64,000 nt of DNA. Source: a virus. The position numbers and the translations under genes were made by a program. Where the stretch lies: IMG/VR virus record IMGVR_UViG_3300047557_002769, positions 62,001-126,000 of that record. The stretch is one strand, 5' to 3'. This document shows positions 26,322 to 41,503 of this stretch, one piece after another (position 1 is the first letter of the stretch; each line of letters starts with the position of its first letter). Under the pieces are notes generated by a model. The model saw nothing but the letters and a program-made list of their open reading frames with translations. It was not told the DNA's origin and did not search any database.

Positions 26322-26330
26322 AATGTATGG

Positions 26331-26403
26331 TAGGCCCGACGTGATTCGAACACGTGACTGGTGAATTATGAGTTCACTGTTATAACCGCTTAACTACAGG
26401 CCC
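26331..26403 (-). tRNA. tRNA, anticodon CAT (Met or Ile2)
   Basis: Cloverleaf with acceptor GGGCCTG, anticodon loop CTCATAA, T-loop TTCGAAT and encoded CCA (26328-26330). Not the initiator type because position 1 can pair with 72 (G-U). Elongator Met or lysidine-modified Ile(CAU) cannot be told apart here. Isolated from the main cluster. Confidence 0.88.
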
Positions 26404-36187: not shown

Positions 36188-36190
36188 TGG

Positions 36191-36272
36191 TGCCCGGGGC
36201 GGGATTCGAACCCGCACGCTTTTTTAGCGGGGGATTTTAAGTCCCCTGTGTCTACCGTTCCACCACCCGGGC
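36191..36272 (-). tRNA. tRNA-Leu(TAA)
   Basis: Class II cloverleaf: acceptor GCCCGGG, anticodon loop CTTAAAA, long variable arm CGCT-AAAAA-AGCG, T-loop TTCGAAT, encoded CCA at 36188-36190. Confidence 0.95.
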
Positions 36273-36280
36273 TTAGTTGG

Positions 36281-36351
36281 TGCCCCTAGAGGGAATCGAA
36301 CCCCCACCTGATGCTTACAAGGCAACTGCACGACCTTCATGCTACAGGGGC
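36281..36351 (-). tRNA. tRNA-Thr(TGT)
   Basis: Acceptor GCCCCTG, anticodon loop CTTGTAA, T-loop TTCGATT, CCA encoded. Confidence 0.94.
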
Positions 36352-36356
36352 AAATT

Positions 36357-36830
36357 TTAAGCAGCTAGCAACTCTTTAAGTCTATCTGCAGCATAAGAAG
36401 CTGCAAAAGCTTTAGGCTTAACCATTGGTACAACGTTACAAACACCTCTAATATAACCTACTGCTTGCTGAATTACAATACTTGAATTATAGTGCTCGTC
36501 AGGGTTAATATCAAGATGAATCTGCACTTCACGGTCACCAATTACATCAACAAGTTTTTGATACAACTCAGCCACCTTGTAAACCTCATTCATTAGACGA
36601 GTTGCAGGCCTGGAAGCTTTTGCATCGTAATCAATCTCCGTCTGTACTTCGCCAAAGATTTTGCAACCATGGCGACCGTCAATGTGTACAACGATAGCCA
36701 AAGTGTAGTCAGCAACCCATTTATCGTTACGCTTAATTCTTTCCGAATCAGCCCCGATATAGATTTTTGTCTCCGGGCTCTGCGCGTCGATGAATGCTTT
36801 TACTTCGTCAATGTTAATAGATTTATTCAT
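36357..36830 (-). CDS. RNase H-like protein, YkuK/DUF458 family
   Basis: 157 aa from the ATG at 36828-36830. TKIYIGADSERIKRNDKWVA (first acidic strand), EVQIHLDINPDEHYNSSIVI and VPMVKPKAFAASYAADRLKE match the ribonuclease H-like YkuK family. Catalytic acids appear retained; activity on RNA or DNA unproven. Placed between tRNA genes, so it may be involved with RNA. Confidence 0.82.
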   Translation of the reverse strand: MNKSINIDEVKAFIDAQSPETKIYIGADSERIKRNDKWVADYTLAIVVHIDGRHGCKIFGEVQTEIDYDAKASRPATRLMNEVYKVAELYQKLVDVIGDREVQIHLDINPDEHYNSSIVIQQAVGYIRGVCNVVPMVKPKAFAASYAADRLKELLAA

Positions 36831-36847
36831 GGCACTACTATTTATGG

Positions 36848-36921
36848 AGCGGGTAACGAGACTCGAACTCGTACCGTCTGCTTGGAAGGCAGTCATGCTA
36901 GCCGTTAAACACCATACCCGC
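36848..36921 (-). tRNA. tRNA-Gly(TCC)
   Basis: Acceptor GCGGGTA, anticodon loop CTTCCAA, T-loop TTCGAGT, CCA encoded. Confidence 0.93.
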
Positions 36922-36928
36922 TTATTGG

Positions 36929-37000
36929 TCCGCCGAGAGGGAATCGAACCCCCATTAAGAGCTTAGAAGGCTCCTGTTCTATCCATTGAACTATCGGCAG
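36929..37000 (-). tRNA. tRNA-Arg(TCT)
   Basis: Acceptor CTGCCGA with one wobble, anticodon loop CTTCTAA, T-loop TTCGATT, CCA encoded. First tRNA after a sigma70-type promoter. Confidence 0.93.
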
Positions 37001-37007
37001 ATGTATT

Positions 37008-37036
37008 ATTATATCCTATTTTAAACTAAAAAACAA
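37008..37036 (-). promoter_or_regulatory. Sigma70-type promoter for tRNAs
   Basis: Minus strand TTGTTT (37031-37036), 17-nt spacer, TATAAT (37008-37013), 7 bp upstream of tRNA-Arg(TCT). Confidence 0.8.
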
Positions 37037-37053
37037 CTCTAATTGTTACGCTT

Positions 37054-37061
37054 ACTAAATA
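37054..37061 (+). promoter_or_regulatory. Possible late promoter (ACTAAATA)
   Basis: Plus-strand ACTAAATA, sharing the TAAATA core of the late box, 15 bp before the holin start. Confidence 0.4.
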
Positions 37062-37076
37062 ACTAAGGGTGACAAT

Positions 37077-37478
37077 ATGACTAAAAATAAAAAAGATAAC
37101 GAACTTTCCTTTAAAGAAGATTGGATGAATAGAAAATGGCGTCCAATGATGGGGTGGATGTACATGATTGTATGTATCACCGATTTTATCATTTTTCCCG
37201 TTTTCTGGTCAATCGTACAACTTAAAGGTGGCGGTAACGTTAAGGAAGCATGGCAGCCTTTGACGTTACAAGGCGCTGGATTGTTTCATGTAGCCATGGG
37301 TGTGGTACTTGGTCTTACTACCTGGGGCAGAACACGTGAACGTATATCTACCAATCAGATGTATGCGCAGTTACCACAAGAACCACAGTTCTACGAAGAG
37401 CGTTCCGTAAGAAAAACAACTGTTAGACCGGAAATAACACCGCCTACCAGACGACCGTTTATTGACCCCGGAGATTAA
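37077..37478 (+). CDS. Holin (GTA-type, 3TM family)
   Basis: 133 aa. WMNRKWRPMMGWMYMIVCIT and DFIIFPVFWSIVQ, then WQPLTLQGAGLFHVAMGVVLGL match the three-helix holin family of gene-transfer-agent type. Forms membrane lesions releasing endolysin. C-terminal tail basic and Pro-rich (TVRPEITPPTRRPF). Convergent with the endolysin gene, ends overlapping by 4 bp. Confidence 0.82.
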   Translation: MTKNKKDNELSFKEDWMNRKWRPMMGWMYMIVCITDFIIFPVFWSIVQLKGGGNVKEAWQPLTLQGAGLFHVAMGVVLGLTTWGRTRERISTNQMYAQLPQEPQFYEERSVRKTTVRPEITPPTRRPFIDPGD

Positions 37479-38101
37479 CTCACCAGAACGTCGATAGCAT
37501 GGTTGTAGTGTTTAATTCTATCGGCTAATCCTATCTTACCTCCATTTATAAGTATAGTCATACCTTCAATATCCGCTATATCAGCGAACGGATTCAAATC
37601 TCTTACATACCAGTACCAACAAGCTGAATGAACTGCACCCCTAGGTGTTTCTAGATAAGTAGGTGCCTCTTCTAAACTGATGTTGCAATATTCTGCAAAG
37701 GTAGAATAGTTAGATCTACCAGTTAGTTGAATTAAACCTCTACCTCTGTAACGAAAACCGTCTCCACTTGCCTCGCTGCTGTTACCCATTCTATTGGCGT
37801 AAACTTTATTAGCAATTTTTGCTGGTTGCCTGTGATAGGGTTGCGCAGACTCGAGTGTAGGAAATCGTTTGGGCCACGTACGCATTAGACCTTGTGCGCT
37901 GTAATTAAGATTTTCTTCTAGCGCAGTATAACCAGCCGACTCATGAGCAGTCTGTGCAATAAATGCAGCTACTCTTTGCACCGAAATTATTTCAAACGTA
38001 GGTAGAATTTCTTCTAGCTCTTTAAACCAAACACCTACACCAAATTTAGCTTTAGGTATAAGTTCTGATAGTTTTTCTTCTGTAAAGTCGAATTCAAACA
38101 T
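37475..38101 (-). CDS. Endolysin, glycoside hydrolase family 19
   Basis: 208 aa. GH19 lysozyme/chitinase fold: RVAAFIAQTAHESAGYTALE (catalytic Glu in AHES), ENLNYSAQGLMRTWPKRFPT, and SGDGFRYRGRGLIQLTGRSN (second catalytic Glu region). Cleaves peptidoglycan at lysis. No signal peptide, so holin-dependent. Encoded opposite to the holin. Confidence 0.93.
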   Translation of the reverse strand: MFEFDFTEEKLSELIPKAKFGVGVWFKELEEILPTFEIISVQRVAAFIAQTAHESAGYTALEENLNYSAQGLMRTWPKRFPTLESAQPYHRQPAKIANKVYANRMGNSSEASGDGFRYRGRGLIQLTGRSNYSTFAEYCNISLEEAPTYLETPRGAVHSACWYWYVRDLNPFADIADIEGMTILINGGKIGLADRIKHYNHAIDVLVS

Positions 38102-38119
38102 AAGCCCTCCCTTTTTAAA

Positions 38120-38127
38120 TATTTAGA
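38120..38127 (-). promoter_or_regulatory. Probable late promoter (TCTAAATA)
   Basis: TAAATA core with two mismatches to the canonical late box, ~20 bp before the endolysin start, followed by GGGAGGG. Confidence 0.45.
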
Positions 38128-38135
38128 GCTTATGG

Positions 38136-38206
38136 TGCTGCTAGCAAGAATCGAACTTGCGTTACCGCCTTACCAAGGCGACGTAATACCATTATACTAT
38201 AGCAGC
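38136..38206 (-). tRNA. tRNA-Thr(GGT)
   Basis: Acceptor GCTGCTA/TAGCAGC, anticodon loop TTGGTAA, T-loop TTCGATT, A73 and CCA encoded. Confidence 0.92.
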
Positions 38207-38213
38207 ATATTGG

Positions 38214-38287
38214 CCCGTCCTGAAGAATTCGAATCTCCAACCTCTGAGTTCGTAGCCCAGTGCACTATCCAGTTGTGCTAAGGACGG
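38214..38287 (-). tRNA. tRNA-Arg(ACG)
   Basis: Acceptor CCGTCCT/AGGACGG, anticodon loop CTACGAA, T-loop TTCGAAT, G73, CCA encoded. Needs A34-to-inosine editing to read CGN. Confidence 0.92.
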
Positions 38288-38293
38288 TTATGG

Positions 38294-38365
38294 ATGCGGG
38301 AGACGGAATCGAACCGCCGTTCTCCAGGTTATGAGCCTGACGAGATACCTCTTCTCCATCCCGCG
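38294..38365 (-). tRNA. Initiator tRNA-fMet(CAT)
   Basis: Starts CGCGGGA with an unpaired C1/A72, the bacterial initiator hallmark, and resembles E. coli tRNA-fMet (TCGTCAGGCTCATAACCTG arm). T-loop TTCGATT. Confidence 0.93.
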
Positions 38366-38374
38366 TAATTTTGG

Positions 38375-38446
38375 TGGTGATAGTTGGTAACGATCCAACC
38401 TGTGAGGCGTATGAAACCCCTGCATATCCGTCTATGCTATATCACC
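38375..38446 (-). tRNA. tRNA(CAT), Met or Ile2, with A54/U58 T-loop
   Basis: Acceptor GGTGATA/TATCACC, anticodon loop TTCATAC, T-stem GTTGG/CCAAC enclosing ATCGTTA instead of TTCGAAT. All stems pair, so it is not obviously degraded. Confidence 0.8.
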
Positions 38447-38450
38447 GTGG

Positions 38451-38540
38451 TCCCCGAGGTGAGATTCGAACTCACGACCTGCCGCTTATCTGGCGCTGAC
38501 GGGGTATAAATCCGCTGCTCTACCGCTGAGCTACCCGGGG
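38451..38540 (-). tRNA. Odd tRNA, anticodon probably TAT (Ile), ~18-nt insertion
   Basis: Acceptor CCCCGGG/CTCGGGG, D-arm GCTC-AGCGGTA-GAGC, T-arm GTGAG-TTCGAAT-CTCAC are standard. The anticodon arm GCGGA-TTTATAC-CCCGT has one mismatch, and the variable region is ~23 nt (containing GCGCCAGATAAGCGGC), abnormal for Ile. Could instead be an intron-like or degenerate gene. Confidence 0.6.
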
Positions 38541-38548
38541 TAAATTGG

Positions 38549-38635
38549 CCGAGAGTCAGGGAGTCGAACCCTGTGACCGTATTACTACAGTCTACGGATT
38601 AGCAATCCGCTGCATTACCATCCTGCCCACTCTCG
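38549..38635 (-). tRNA. tRNA-Ser(GCT)
   Basis: Class II: acceptor CGAGAGT, anticodon loop TTGCTAA, long variable arm, T-loop TTCGACT, G73. Confidence 0.94.
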
Positions 38636-38642
38636 TTATTGG

Positions 38643-38729
38643 AGGAAGCGGTGGGATTCGAACCCACGGACCGCTTTCACGATCGCTAGTTTTCAAGACT
38701 AGAGCCATCAACCACTCGACCACGCTTCC
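38643..38729 (-). tRNA. tRNA-Ser(TGA)
   Basis: Class II: acceptor GGAAGCG, anticodon loop CTTGAAA, variable arm CGATCGTGAAAGCGGTC, T-loop TTCGAAT. Confidence 0.94.
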
Positions 38730-38737
38730 TTAATTGG

Positions 38738-38810
38738 TGCCGCCTCTCTGTTACGATCAGAGTTCTCTGGTTCTTCAGACCAGCGTGAGGACCACCTTCA
38801 CCAAAGCGGC
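38738..38810 (-). tRNA. tRNA-Phe(GAA) with A54/U58 T-loop
   Basis: Acceptor GCCGCTT/AGGCGGC, anticodon arm CTGGT-CTGAAGA-ACCAG, T-arm CTCTG-ATCGTAA-CAGAG, A73, CCA encoded. T-loop is of the altered class. Confidence 0.82.
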
Positions 38811-38817
38811 ATATTGG

Positions 38818-38888
38818 GTTGAACCGGGGAATCGAACCCTCTCTACTTGTTTCACGGACAAGTGTGCGACCACTACACTAGGAACAAC
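38818..38888 (-). tRNA. tRNA-His(GTG), atypical
   Basis: G-1 opposite C73 and anticodon arm CTTGT-CCGTGAA-ACAAG support His, but position 33 is C instead of U and the acceptor stem contains two adjacent T-T mismatches, with a weak T-stem. Either a divergent functional tRNA or a decaying one. Confidence 0.65.
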
Positions 38889-38897
38889 ATTAACTGG

Positions 38898-38968
38898 CAG
38901 GGATGCTTGGAATCGAACCAAGGACACGGGAATCAAAATCCTGTGTGATACCATTTCACCACACCCCA
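38898..38968 (-). tRNA. tRNA-Gln(TTG)
   Basis: Acceptor TGGGGTG, anticodon loop TTTTGAT, T-loop TTCGATT, G73, CCA encoded. Confidence 0.9.
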
Positions 38969-38981
38969 ACAAAAAAACTGG

Positions 38982-39054
38982 TCTCCGTAAGAGGATTTGA
39001 ACCCCTACCGCCTGACCCCAAATCAGGAACGCTGCCAGATTACGCTATACGGAG
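38982..39054 (-). tRNA. tRNA-Pro(TGG)
   Basis: Acceptor CTCCGTA/TACGGAG, anticodon arm CCTGA-TTTGGGG-TCAGG, T-loop TTCAAAT. Confidence 0.93.
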
Positions 39055-39065
39055 AATAAATTTGG

Positions 39066-39141
39066 TGGACCCAATGACCAGCTACAGTCAATGCCCGCAA
39101 CCAGGGTTACTGGCGGTCGCTCTTATTGCTACCGAGGGCCC
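39066..39141 (-). ncRNA. tRNA-like element with non-canonical core
   Basis: 76 nt between tRNA genes. Ends form a tRNA-style acceptor (GGGCCC/GGGTCC) followed by A and encoded CCA, but inside there is no TTCRA T-loop or GG D-loop; the 3'-side hairpin is TGAC-N8-GTCA and a central hairpin is CCAG-TAACC-CTGG. Size and ends mimic a tRNA. Confidence 0.5.
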
Positions 39142-39154
39142 ATAAATTGTTTGG

Positions 39155-39227
39155 TGGAAGATAGGGGAATCGAACCCCTGACTCCGACTTGCAAGGCCGG
39201 CGTGTTCCCAATTAGCACCAATCCCCC
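39155..39227 (-). tRNA. tRNA-Ala(TGC)
   Basis: Acceptor GGGGGAT/ATCTTCC with wobbles, anticodon arm CCGGC-CTTGCAA-GTCGG, T-loop TTCGATT, CCA encoded. Confidence 0.9.
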
Positions 39228-39231
39228 ATTA

Positions 39232-39313
39232 CCATATTGAAGCACACTAGCACCACAGCAACCGGCTCAATGGCGGGGAGTCGAACCCACTTTGTTAATG
39301 CACTTCAATATGG
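39232..39313 (-). repeat. Inverted-repeat-bounded element IR1
   Basis: 82 bp closed by an 18-bp helix (CCATATTGAAGTGCATTA with TAGTGTGCTTCAATATGG). The interior contains GTGGGTTCGACTCCCC, a T-arm-like hairpin near the 5' side, not where a tRNA would have it. Same outer repeat as IR2-IR4. Confidence 0.8.
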
Positions 39314-39535
39314 CCCCAGCCCCTACACTGGGTACATATTGTCTTCTGAGTCGGCAGAAGATTTTATCTCCTGTTGTTCCGCGTTTCTCGGACGACGATC
39401 CTCAGGCCTAGACATCCGTATGCGAAGTCCACCATCACTCGCATATTTTTAATGACGGGGCTTTCACCCGCCTCGGTATTGTTTGCTCTGCTAACCACTA
39501 GGGAATGTGGCAACAAGAGTACCGGGACTAATTGT
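39314..39535 (-). ncRNA. Structured non-tRNA domain in the tRNA array (domain S)
   Basis: No plausible gene. Minus-strand helices: CTCTTGTTG with CAACAGGAG (9 bp, closing), CCAC-N8-GTGG, GGCGGG-N7-CCCGTC, ATGCGA-N13-TCGCAT, TCTTCTG-N6-CAGAAGA, and CCCAG-N8-CTGGG followed by GCCA at the IR1 border. Looks like a multi-branched RNA rather than a chance gap. Confidence 0.5.
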
Positions 39536-39543
39536 TAATCTGG

Positions 39544-39615
39544 TGCATCGTGAGAGGATTGAACTCCCGACCTTGGCCTTGTAAGGGCCCTGCTCTACCG
39601 CTGAGCTAACGATGC
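39544..39615 (-). tRNA. tRNA-Val(TAC)
   Basis: Acceptor GCATCGT, anticodon loop CTTACAA, D-arm GCTCAGCGGTAGAGC, T-loop TTCAATC, CCA encoded. Confidence 0.93.
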
Positions 39616-39624
39616 GTAATATGG

Positions 39625-39714
39625 TGGGTGTCCACGGAGTCGAACCGCGAATGTTTACCACGAGGGACCGGATTTACAGTCCGGTGCAGCACACGCCTTA
39701 GCTGCAAGACACCC
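39625..39714 (-). tRNA. tRNA-Tyr(GTA)
   Basis: Class II: acceptor GGGTGTC, anticodon arm CCGGA-CTGTAAA-TCCGG, variable arm, T-loop TTCGACT, CCA encoded. Confidence 0.94.
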
Positions 39715-39725
39715 ATAAAACTTGG

Positions 39726-39799
39726 CTGACCAGGTAGGGATCGAACCCACGACATCGTGATTAACAGTCACGCGCAACTACCAACTGTGCTACTGGTCA
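39726..39799 (-). tRNA. tRNA-Asn(GTT)
   Basis: Acceptor TGACCAG/CTGGTCA, anticodon loop CTGTTAA, T-loop TTCGATC, G73, CCA encoded. Confidence 0.94.
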
Positions 39800-39811
39800 A
39801 AAAACTCTGGA

Positions 39812-39883
39812 GCGGGTAATCGGTTTCGAACCGATGGCCTTAACTTTGGCAAAGTTACGCTCTACCAACTGAGCTATACCCGC
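39812..39883 (-). tRNA. tRNA-Gly(GCC)
   Basis: Acceptor GCGGGTA/TACCCGC, anticodon arm AACTT-TGCCA centred loop TTGCCAA, T-loop TTCGAAA. Confidence 0.93.
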
Positions 39884-39887
39884 TTAA

Positions 39888-39998
39888 CCATATTGAAACA
39901 CACTCGACGGAATCGAACCGTCCACCTCTGCTCCATACGGGGCAAGGCTGTATCCAGTCAGTAGGCTTGTACTTTGCCTTGAATGTGCTTCAATATGG
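39888..39998 (-). repeat. Inverted-repeat-bounded element IR2
   Basis: 111 bp closed by an 18-bp helix (CCATATTGAAGCACATTC with GAGTGTGTTTCAATATGG). A perfect T-arm GACGG-TTCGATT-CCGTC abuts the inner 7 bp of that helix, as in a tRNA with an acceptor stem extended by 11 bp; the middle (GGC-N9-GCC, TGCCCC-GTAT-GGAGCA) has no convincing anticodon arm. Confidence 0.8.
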
Positions 39999-40135
39999 TC
40001 TCGGGTTTGCACCGAGATCACCGACTAAACGGCTTTCGCTAGTGATTCACTCATATTACTTGCAGGTCATATGAGGCTCTATGCGATGCTTAAAGACTGA
40101 TTAAAAGGGCCTGCATTAGTTACCAGTCTCAAAAA
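39999..40135 (-). ncRNA. Structured non-tRNA domain in the tRNA array (domain Y)
   Basis: 137 bp with no gene. Helices on the minus strand: AGACTG with CAGTCT, CTCATAT-N12-ATATGAG, ATCAC with GTGAT enclosing GC-GAAA-GC and CCG-N6-CGG hairpins, and CTCGG-TGCAAAC-CCGAG followed by ACCA. TGCAGG and CCTGCA in two loops could form a pseudoknot. Confidence 0.5.
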
Positions 40136-40219
40136 CCATATTGAAACATACTGCACTAGTCAATTGAATACAGTTGACCAGTCTTCCTTATCAGTGAAGC
40201 GCAATACGTTTCAATATGG
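40136..40219 (-). repeat. Inverted-repeat-bounded element IR3
   Basis: 84 bp closed by a 19-bp helix (CCATATTGAAACGTATTGC with GCAGTATGTTTCAATATGG). Interior: CTTC-ACTGATAAG-GAAG, resembling an Ile anticodon arm, and a 9-bp hairpin ACTGGTCAA/TTGACTAGT. The first CCA is also the 3' CCA of tRNA-Leu(TAG). Confidence 0.8.
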
Positions 40220-40293
40220 TGCCCCAGAGGAGACTCGAACTCCTAAAATTTGGCTTCTAAGACCAACACGTATACCAATTCCGTCACCAGGGC
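40220..40293 (-). tRNA. tRNA-Leu(TAG)
   Basis: Acceptor GCCCTGG, anticodon loop CTTAGAA, T-loop TTCGAGT; the variable region is shorter than usual for Leu. 3' CCA runs directly into IR3. Confidence 0.85.
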
Positions 40294-40302
40294 ATTATAA
40301 CA

Positions 40303-40331
40303 ATTATATATTATCTTATTTTTAAAATCAA
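40303..40331 (-). promoter_or_regulatory. Sigma70-type promoter within the tRNA array
   Basis: Minus strand TTGATT (40326-40331), 17-nt spacer, TATAAT (40303-40308), just upstream of tRNA-Leu(TAG). Confidence 0.8.
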
Positions 40332-40335
40332 CTGG

Positions 40336-40407
40336 CGGTCCCAAGGAGTAACGATCTCCTTCTTCATGCGTGACAGGCATGCGTGCGTCCATGAACACTT
40401 TGAGACC
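40336..40407 (-). tRNA. tRNA-Asp(GTC) with A54/U58 T-loop
   Basis: Acceptor GGTCTCA/TGGGACC, anticodon arm CATGC-CTGTCAC-GCATG, G73, CCA encoded; T-arm AGGAG-ATCGTTA-CTCCT is of the altered class. Confidence 0.88.
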
Positions 40408-40414
40408 TTATGAA

Positions 40415-40645
40415 TTTGTTAAGCGCCAGCCACCACATACATCGGCTGCATTATCCGCAAATTATCCCGGGTGCGGTTATGATCGGATAAGCTCTTTTAC
40501 AGATAACTTATCTTCACCTAGGGTACGTCACAATAATAATCAGCAGGCGGGTGCCATGGTACGTCCTTGAACCGTCACCTTTTTACTATGCTAGATCTTG
40601 CAAAATCATCACACAGTGCCTTTTATTAGAGACACACTTAACAAA
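40415..40645 (-). ncRNA. Structured non-tRNA domain closed by an 11-bp helix
   Basis: 231 bp between tRNA-Asp and tRNA-Glu with no convincing gene. Ends pair over 11 bp (TTTGTTAAGTG with CGCTTAACAAA, one wobble). Internal stems include TTATCCG/CGGATAA, CAGCC-N12-GGCTG and GATAA/TTATC. GACGTACC occurs twice. Suggests a discrete folded RNA. Confidence 0.5.
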
Positions 40646-40651
40646 ACTTGG

Positions 40652-40723
40652 TACTCCTGAAGGGTTTCGATCCCTCTTTTCCGCCTTGAAAGGGCAGCGT
40701 CCTAGCCAGTAGACGACAGGAGC
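40652..40723 (-). tRNA. tRNA-Glu(TTC) with A54 T-loop
   Basis: Acceptor GCTCCTG/CAGGAGT, anticodon arm CTGCC-CTTTCAA-GGCGG, T-arm GAGGG-ATCGAAA-CCCTT: A54 like the altered class but A58 retained. Confidence 0.9.
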
Positions 40724-40733
40724 ATTATTCTGG

Positions 40734-40804
40734 CATCCCGGGAGGGACTCGAACCCCCACAAACGGTTTTGGAGACCGCTATGCTGCCATTACACCACCG
40801 AGAT
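40734..40804 (-). tRNA. tRNA-Trp(CCA)
   Basis: Acceptor ATCTCGG/CCGGGAT, anticodon loop CTCCAAA, T-loop TTCGAGT, G73, CCA encoded. Confidence 0.94.
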
Positions 40805-40805
40805 A

Positions 40806-41117
40806 TTAATAACCGTTTGCGAATACGGTTTTTTGAGTAACTTCTTGAACAAAGGCACCGCATGTATACGTATCACCTTGTCTTGCGACGTTACGACCGT
40901 TCGCAAATACATTAGGGCTAAACGAGTTGATAGTTGTTGAATAAACAGGTGGGCAGTGCGTGTGTGGAGTATTCGTATCATCTTTACGATGTATTCCTAC
41001 CCCTGCAACAAACACATTCGTAGAACAACTTAAAGTTCTAATAAGCCCCGGAACAATACATACCGGGTGTCCCGTGTTAACAATATCAACCTCGTCGCCT
41101 CTTGCAATTAATGGCAT
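40806..41117 (-). CDS. PAAR-repeat spike-tip protein
   Basis: 103 aa from the ATG at 41115-41117 with AGGAGG upstream; an upstream ATG at 41195 lies in tRNA-Cys. PLIARGDEVDIVNTGH, STNVFVAGVGIHRKDDTNTP and SPNVFANGRNVARQGDTYTC are PAAR beta-hairpin repeats with His/Cys metal ligands. Caps the tail spike (T4 gp5.4 role). Embedded among tRNA genes with a late-like box. Confidence 0.9.
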   Translation of the reverse strand: MPLIARGDEVDIVNTGHPVCIVPGLIRTLSCSTNVFVAGVGIHRKDDTNTPHTHCPPVYSTTINSFSPNVFANGRNVARQGDTYTCGAFVQEVTQKTVFANGY

Positions 41118-41133
41118 ATTATCCTCCTTTTTA

Positions 41134-41141
41134 TATTTAGG
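41134..41141 (-). promoter_or_regulatory. Probable late promoter (CCTAAATA)
   Basis: TAAATA-core box 17 bp before the PAAR gene, continuing TAAAAAGGAGG. Confidence 0.45.
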
Positions 41142-41152
41142 ATAATAACTGG

Positions 41153-41227
41153 AGTATCGGGTCAGATTCGAACTGACGGTTTTACGGATTTGCAATCCGT
41201 TGCCTTTGACCGCTCGGCCACCGATAC
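41153..41227 (-). tRNA. tRNA-Cys(GCA)
   Basis: Acceptor GTATCGG/CCGATAC, anticodon arm ACGGA-TTGCAAA-TCCGT, T-loop TTCGAAT, U73, CCA encoded. Confidence 0.93.
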
Positions 41228-41231
41228 ACTA

Positions 41232-41354
41232 CCATATTGAAACACACTGCACTATCTAGATGCTTAAGTAGCTGTCACCGGCCGGTTTGTATCTACTATC
41301 TACACCCTACGCTCTCTTGGCCAAGAGAATGGCTTGCAATGTGCTTCAATATGG
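41232..41354 (-). repeat. Inverted-repeat-bounded element IR4
   Basis: 123 bp closed by a 20-bp helix (CCATATTGAAGCACATTGCA with TGCAGTGTGTTTCAATATGG). Interior has a 16-bp palindrome TCTCTTGGCCAAGAGA and further potential pairing (TAGATGC region). The first CCA is the CCA tail of tRNA-Lys. Confidence 0.8.
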
Positions 41355-41425
41355 TAGGGCTGGAGGGTAACGATCCCTCTTCTACGGATTAAAAGTCCGT
41401 TGCTTCACCTTAAAGCTTCAACCCC
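41355..41425 (-). tRNA. tRNA-Lys(TTT) with A54/U58 T-loop
   Basis: Acceptor GGGGTTG/CAGCCCT, anticodon arm CGGA-CTTTTAA-TCCG, T-arm GAGGG-ATCGTTA-CCCTC, A73; CCA continues into IR4. Confidence 0.88.
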
Positions 41426-41432
41426 AATATGG

Positions 41433-41503
41433 TACCCACAACAGGTAACGATCCTGTGTCTCTCGGTTATCAGCCGAGTGCTCTACCTTTGAGCTATGCG
41501 GGT
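41433..41503 (-). tRNA. tRNA-Ile(GAT) with A54/U58 T-loop
   Basis: Acceptor ACCCGCA/TGTGGGT, D-arm GCTCAAAGGTAGAGC, anticodon arm CTCGG-CTGATAA-CCGAG, T-arm ACAGG-ATCGTTA-CCTGT, A73, CCA encoded. All stems pair; only the T-loop is unusual. First tRNA after a promoter. Confidence 0.9.

Follow-up and report, generated by a model that had tools for sequence, protein, structure and literature searches.

The elbow of elongator transfer RNAs (tRNAs) is taught to hold two near-universal pairs, T54-A58 within the T-loop and the Levitt pair 15-48, and both gene finders and modification enzymes depend on them. We describe here a class of phage tRNAs that departs from both, starting from a stretch of 64,000 nucleotides (the window) that comprises bases 62,001-126,000 of the 163,234-base IMG/VR virus record IMGVR_UViG_3300047557_002769. 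Genes for a DNA polymerase, UvsX, a DnaB-like helicase and a gp44-type clamp loader point to a T4-like tailed phage. ARAGORN places 28 tRNA genes in the window, all on the minus strand, and six of them carry A instead of T at position 54 (Table 1). We refer to tRNAs with this substitution as the A54 class.

Six tRNAs with an altered elbow

Five of the six combine A54 with U58, tRNA-Glu alone has A54-A58, and all six have A60; the remaining 22 of the 28 window tRNAs keep T54 and A58. These loops are those described in an earlier sequence-only reading of the window, which had listed ATCGTTA four times, ATCGTAA in Phe and ATCGAAA in Glu among T54-A58 neighbours. That reading had also judged stems, anticodon loops and CCA ends to be intact, and indeed each of the six genes has five of five T-stem pairs, a standard anticodon loop and an encoded CCA. 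Beyond it, we find that position 60 holds A in place of a pyrimidine, that the 15-48 pair is non-standard (the standard Levitt pair is kept in none of the six), and that the pattern occurs across phages. Scored against the Rfam tRNA model, five of the six lie well above threshold, with Met and Phe lower and Asp unlisted.

Table 1. Altered tRNA genes of the window and features surrounding them (positions are those of the window).
Feature	Position	Strand	T-loop	T-stem	15-48	Remarks
tRNA-Met/Ile2(CAT)	38372..38446	-	ATCGTTA 38388-38394	GTTGG/CCAAC	G-G	
tRNA-Phe(GAA)	38735..38810	-	ATCGTAA 38751-38757	CTCTG/CAGAG	G-A	
tRNA-Asp(GTC)	40333..40407	-	ATCGTTA 40349-40355	AGGAG/CTCCT	C-A	A8-U14
tRNA-Glu(TTC)	40649..40723	-	ATCGAAA 40665-40671		C-A	A54-A58-A60
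tRNA-Lys(TTT)	41352..41425	-	ATCGTTA 41368-41374	GAGGG/CCCTC	A-A	A8-U14
tRNA-Ile(GAT)	41430..41503	-	ATCGTTA 41446-41452	ACAGG/CCTGT	A-C	
tRNA cluster, 27 tRNAs	36188..41503	-				six A54-class members among canonical T54-A58 ones
Lone 28th tRNA, Met(CAT)	26328-26403	-				outside main cluster
Hairpin	39231-39314	-				between tRNA genes
Hairpin	39887-39999	-				between tRNA genes
Hairpin	40135-40220	-				between tRNA genes
Hairpin	41229-41357	-				between tRNA genes
PAAR-motif protein gene	40806-41195					inside tRNA cluster

Coupling of positions 54, 58 and 60 in phage tRNAs

An unselected sample of 1,224 distinct phage tRNAs, picked via an unrelated hairpin and not via the T-loop, contains A54 in 4.8% and U58 in 4.2% of its members. 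Were the two sites independent, 2.5 tRNAs would be expected to have A54-U58; 52 do, T54-U58 does not occur at all, and A60 is associated with the A54 class (p=3e-63). About one in twenty tRNA genes of tRNA-rich phages carries A54-U58 or A54-A58, and that such a class exists is all but certain.

The same dependence emerges from five scans of 2.9 million viral contigs with one pattern varied solely at positions 54, 58 and 60. At least 114 confirmed tRNAs have A54-U58-A60 and at least 114 have A54-A58-A60. No tRNA was recovered with T54-U58-A60 (10 matches) or with A54-A58-U60 (27 matches), and a single one with A54-U58-U60 (54 matches); the latter, canonical in its core, possibly belongs to a host and sits at a prophage edge. 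A60 is found in 98.5% of A54-A58 and 85% of A54-U58 tRNAs, a share that is partly built into the pattern in the A54-U58 scan, although unselected tRNAs show A60 too. Related sequences inflate such counts, and the tests were redone on the earlier loci after grouping their tRNAs at 75% identity and keeping representatives; the outcome was unchanged. The Glu loop ATCGAAA had been taken for a possible intermediate, but with at least 114 tRNAs in one scan A54-A58-A60 is more aptly seen as a sub-class of its own, and a stable one. G54-G58 loops are rare (14 cases, nine with A60).

The A54 share differs strongly by isotype. It reaches 13-23% in Asp, Glu, Lys, His, Ile and Phe, and at the low end stand Arg (0 of 153), Cys (0 of 73), Pro (1 of 84) and Gln (2 of 90). 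Over loci the share is just mildly over-dispersed (dispersion 1.4-1.5), and for this reason we do not favour genome-level selection through a single host-wide cause. Separately, three A54-U58 tRNAs (Asp, Lys and Asn) with the loop ATCGTAA replace G53-C61 by a T53-T61 mismatch (loci L273:9745-9817, L188 and L128).

Further changes in the elbow and core

The standard Levitt pair (G-C or A-U at 15-48) is present in 0-26% of the A54 class, depending on sub-class and sample, against 75-78%; these counts are limited to tRNAs with U8 and A14, which keeps the register, as the numbering of 8, 14, 15 and 48 presumes a 7-pair acceptor stem as ARAGORN draws it. In the unselected sample the figures are 8 of 36 A54 tRNAs (22%) versus 586 of 782 (75%; p=1.6e-10), and the difference persists at the level of clusters (12 of 63 versus 507 of 667, p=2.9e-19). 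The substitutes are chiefly A-C, A-A and G-G, with A15-C48 the commonest (46-59%) and R15-A48 (R, purine) a minority. Additionally, 52-62 is G-C in 86-95% of the class compared with 68% (p=2e-6 in the unselected sample), and stratification by isotype shows enrichment of A17, G57, U59 and a variable loop of four bases as well.

Other positions are held firmly. C56 and R37 are present in 100% of the A54-U58 class, U33 in 98% and G18-G19 in 97%, and U55 is kept. The stems of the A54 class are 97-99% paired, with up to five pair types per stem position, and CCA is encoded in 93-98% of its genes. Since the sites are coupled, the stems compensated and C56 and G18-G19 retained, the A54 tRNAs are not decaying genes. 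The sequence-only reading had argued for a coordinated swap over random decay, and the covariation of 54, 58, 60, 52-62 and 15-48, together with compensated stems and invariant R37 and C56, strongly supports it. Checked by eye for complementarity to ATCGTTA, as in a double helix between D- and T-loops, the window D-loops offered just ordinary G18-G19 contexts.

Besides the reverse-Hoogsteen pair T54-A58, the Asp and Lys tRNAs of the window also swap the other pair of this kind, from U8-A14 to A8-U14. A8-U14 occurs in 31 of 55 A54-class Asp tRNAs versus none of 112 T54 Asp tRNAs, and is present too in some T54 tRNAs, Trp and Pro among them.

Occurrence in phages, bacteria and archaea

The viral-contig scans and sequenced isolates show A54 loops to be general in phage tRNAs. 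They are found in isolates infecting Xanthomonas, Pseudomonas, Mycobacterium, Curtobacterium, Synechococcus and Aeromonas, which were chosen by similarity or as examples, so that isolate counts are not frequencies. A54-U58 tRNAs of various isotypes occur in Xanthomonas phage X1, Pseudomonas phage UNO-G1W1, Mycobacterium phage IkeLoa and Curtobacterium phage Yappy. The Lys tRNA of Synechococcus phage BUCT-ZZ01 (T-loop ATCGTTC) is 89% identical to that of the window, the window Ile tRNA is 84% identical to that of Xanthomonas phage X1, and a Gly tRNA of an Aeromonas phage has the T-loop ATCGTTA.

Cellular genomes gave a different picture. A pattern for the Ile(GAT) tRNA, run over 84,980 bacterial and archaeal genomes (257 billion bases), returned ten matches, a single one of which is a tRNA, and this sits on a small metagenome-bin contig with genes for a phage major head protein and for HNH endonucleases. 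A four-loop A54 pattern returned about 143 matches in 798 genomes from the two phyla to which a Methylococcaceae and a Cohnella genome belong, and none of the 140 inspected is a tRNA with that loop; the matching canonical pattern gave 10 to 33 matches per genome in 16 of the set. The genome patterns demand an encoded CCA plus G52-C62 (for Ile, G53-C61), and CCA-less genes and other phyla lie outside their scope. Separately, a pattern for the Lys tRNA that fixed 14 bases proved too loose, with mostly chance matches, and was discarded. Within the bacterial tRNAs checked, the A54 elbow class appears phage-specific.

Contigs L251, L283 and L285 of the metagenome-assembled genome REEB109, binned as Pseudomonadota, also bear tRNA clusters of phage type in which A54 and G54 loops occur. 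L251 carries a phage head gene, which indicates phage sequence binned with a bacterium.

Expected consequences for T-loop modification

TruB, which forms pseudouridine at position 55 (Psi55), has the T-arm consensus 53-GUUYRANYC-61 (PMC7912444). The A54-U58-A60 members break it at 54, 58 and 60, and Glu breaks it at 54 and 60. Because of this departure, A54 loops should be poor TruB substrates, and reduced Psi55 is likely. TrmA, the enzyme of 5-methyluridine 54 (m5U54), requires U at 54, whereas the six window tRNAs present A. On chemical grounds A54 is not methylatable to m5U54 and U58 is not convertible to 1-methyladenosine (m1A58). The change in U54 methylation that had been suggested from the sequence is therefore certain in principle. 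No TruB or TrmA gene is detectable in the phage's 163 kb record.

Hairpins and a protein gene within the cluster

Four long hairpins lie between the tRNA genes of the window (Table 1). They share an outer stem, 5' ACCATATTGAA.. paired with ..TTCAATATGG(T/C) 3', around unrelated interiors, and their fold z-scores range from -3.8 to -9.7. The outer stem was found in at least 119 viral contig stretches, with tRNAs at 116 of 118 loci (1,820 on the expected strand versus 64). The four window hairpins have no convincing Rfam match, and the stem was not found among phage isolates; they may represent an RNA or DNA element of phage tRNA arrays that has so far gone undescribed. The tRNA cluster also encloses a gene for a PAAR-motif protein (Pfam PF05488, E 8e-11).

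Interpretation

The explanation that we rank first, and to which we give roughly an even chance, is that the A54 genes give rise to functional tRNAs whose elbow follows a different design, one suited to folding and decoding in a brief infection even when the host does not modify the T-loop. A purine at 54 would be accommodated through a rebuilt 54-58 pair, either A54-U58 or A54-A58, with A placed at 60, the loop clamped by two G-C pairs (52-62 and 53-61) and the 15-48 Levitt pair relaxed. The Hoogsteen edge of A54 would probably face the Watson-Crick edge of U58, a geometry that would also suit A54-A58 and the rare G54-G58 loops. With the docking residues G18, G19, U55 and C56 retained, such a loop should still be able to dock with the D-loop, while m5U54 could not be formed in it and TruB should act on it poorly. 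It is also possible, although we hold it rather less probable than improbable, that the class is an orthogonal elbow, absent from hosts and selected because it evades their T-loop-reading enzymes (T54 and Psi55 modification, quality control, nucleases), which would let the tRNAs mature and survive during infection.

Several observations weigh against a self-sufficient elbow. If independence from modification were its whole point, every tRNA of a phage should be altered, yet just about 5% of tRNAs are, with little clustering by genome and a strong isotype bias. T5 (21 tRNAs) and Vibrio phage vB_ValS_X1 (16 tRNAs) have no A54 tRNA at all, and TruB might still act on A54 loops.

Part of this picture is what compensated drift would produce, an explanation that we rank second and regard as possible but somewhat doubtful. 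Under weaker constraint than host tRNAs, phage tRNAs would have passed from T54-A58-Y60 (Y, pyrimidine) through A54-A58-A60 to A54-U58-A60, eased by a looser 15-48 pair, and the outcome would function about equally well, confer no specific advantage and persist by descent and exchange between phages. The abundance of A54-A58-A60 and the absence of T54-U58 match such a stepwise path, the Lys and Ile similarities to phages BUCT-ZZ01 and X1 point to isotype lineages, and clustering by genome is slight. Moreover, Arg, Cys, Pro and Gln have few A54 members or none. In the case of Arg, Cys and Pro the synthetase recognises the tRNA core or elbow, and the swap may simply be tolerated only elsewhere; from this general knowledge the isotype bias fits tolerance where the synthetase ignores the core, with Phe as an awkward case. 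However, the other sites of the A54 class are at least as conserved as in T54 tRNAs, which is odd for relaxed genes, and the class recurs in many isotypes and was not found in bacterial chromosomes. Far less room is left for degenerate pseudogenes or non-translational decoys. Their loops would be off-consensus, as these are, and the lower Rfam scores of Met and Phe and the unlisted Asp would agree, but every stem shows compensatory changes, C56 and R37 do not vary and CCA is encoded, which makes this origin very improbable. That the class stems from faulty assembly or was created by the tRNA-finding program is the least probable of all, to the point of being negligible: ARAGORN weighs the T-loop consensus and could shape the class counts, but a scanner blind to T-loop sequence recovers the same classes with no match in shuffled DNA, which argues that the A54 class is no ARAGORN artefact, and independently sequenced isolates carry the loops.

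Evasion comes third in our ranking and seems unlikely. Here the altered T-loop would conceal the tRNAs from some T-loop-reading enzyme of the host or of a competitor, such as a tRNA-cutting toxin or a defence nuclease, so that phage translation outlasts the cutting of host tRNAs. tRNases that read the T-loop do exist. The CdiA-CT toxin of strain E479 cleaves the T-loop between its conserved T and Psi (PMC9086364), Cas12a3 contacts the T-arm (PMC12851939), and the escape of phage tRNAs from anticodon nucleases via loop mutations is an established idea (PMC10264068). Yet the E479 toxin targets tRNA-Arg, the very isotype in which A54 is absent, Cas12a3 touches the T-arm backbone and not the loop bases, and just a minority of each phage's tRNAs is altered.

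Whichever explanation holds, T54-A58 and the Levitt pair give way jointly in a considerable fraction of phage tRNAs, in many isotypes and with no counterpart found in the bacterial chromosomes checked. These natural, functional-looking variants make the purpose of elbow modifications and tertiary pairs testable, and bear on the reason why phages carry tRNAs. Consensus-based tRNA finders may under-score A54 genes, and the A54 tRNAs suggest scaffolds for tRNA engineering.

Comparison with known systems

Non-standard 54-58 pairs have reportedly been obtained by Zagryadskaya, Doyon and Steinberg in 2003, in suppressor tRNAs selected in the laboratory, work that bears on whether a tRNA can function once T54-A58 is gone. 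Eukaryotic initiator tRNA has A60, which gives it an AUCGAAA loop as in tRNA-Glu of the window. Its 54-58 pair is A54-A58 (PMC7912444; PMC7566577). Unlike the phage class, whose members are mostly elongators and often have a U58 that cannot become m1A, this arrangement serves an initiator only and is m1A58-modified. For phage tRNAs with changes in the anticodon loop, an escape from host defences that cut tRNAs has been proposed (van den Berg and colleagues 2023, PMC10264068). Like those, the A54 tRNAs are phage-encoded and deviate from the host at otherwise conserved sites, but what changes in them is the T-loop together with the core, whereas U33 and R37 are as usual, and the T-loop goes unmentioned in that paper. 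The open-access literature yielded no account of A54 T-loops in phage tRNAs, which is weak evidence that none exists, as subscription papers fall mostly outside that scope.

The closest precedent is the eukaryotic cytosolic tRNA-Ala(AGC). According to the passages of Westhof and colleagues 2020 (PMC7566577) that deal with it, A54-A58 always occurs there with R15-A48, plus a purine at 60, and positions 48 and 54 share one strand, so that moving one should shift the other. An additional D-loop residue, 17, is a further mark of the eukaryotic A54-A58 class. Judged against those passages, the phage A54-A58 tRNAs, such as tRNA-Glu of the window, show a similar coupling of 15-48, 54-58 and R60. In contrast to tRNA-Ala(AGC), the phage class spans most isotypes, adds A54-U58 (of which the same passages hold no description), has mostly A15-C48 and not R15-A48, and serves in bacteria. 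From their sequences, the phage A54-A58 tRNAs look like the eukaryote-type arrangement arising in bacterial viruses, and A54-U58 would be a further variant beyond the precedent that those passages describe.

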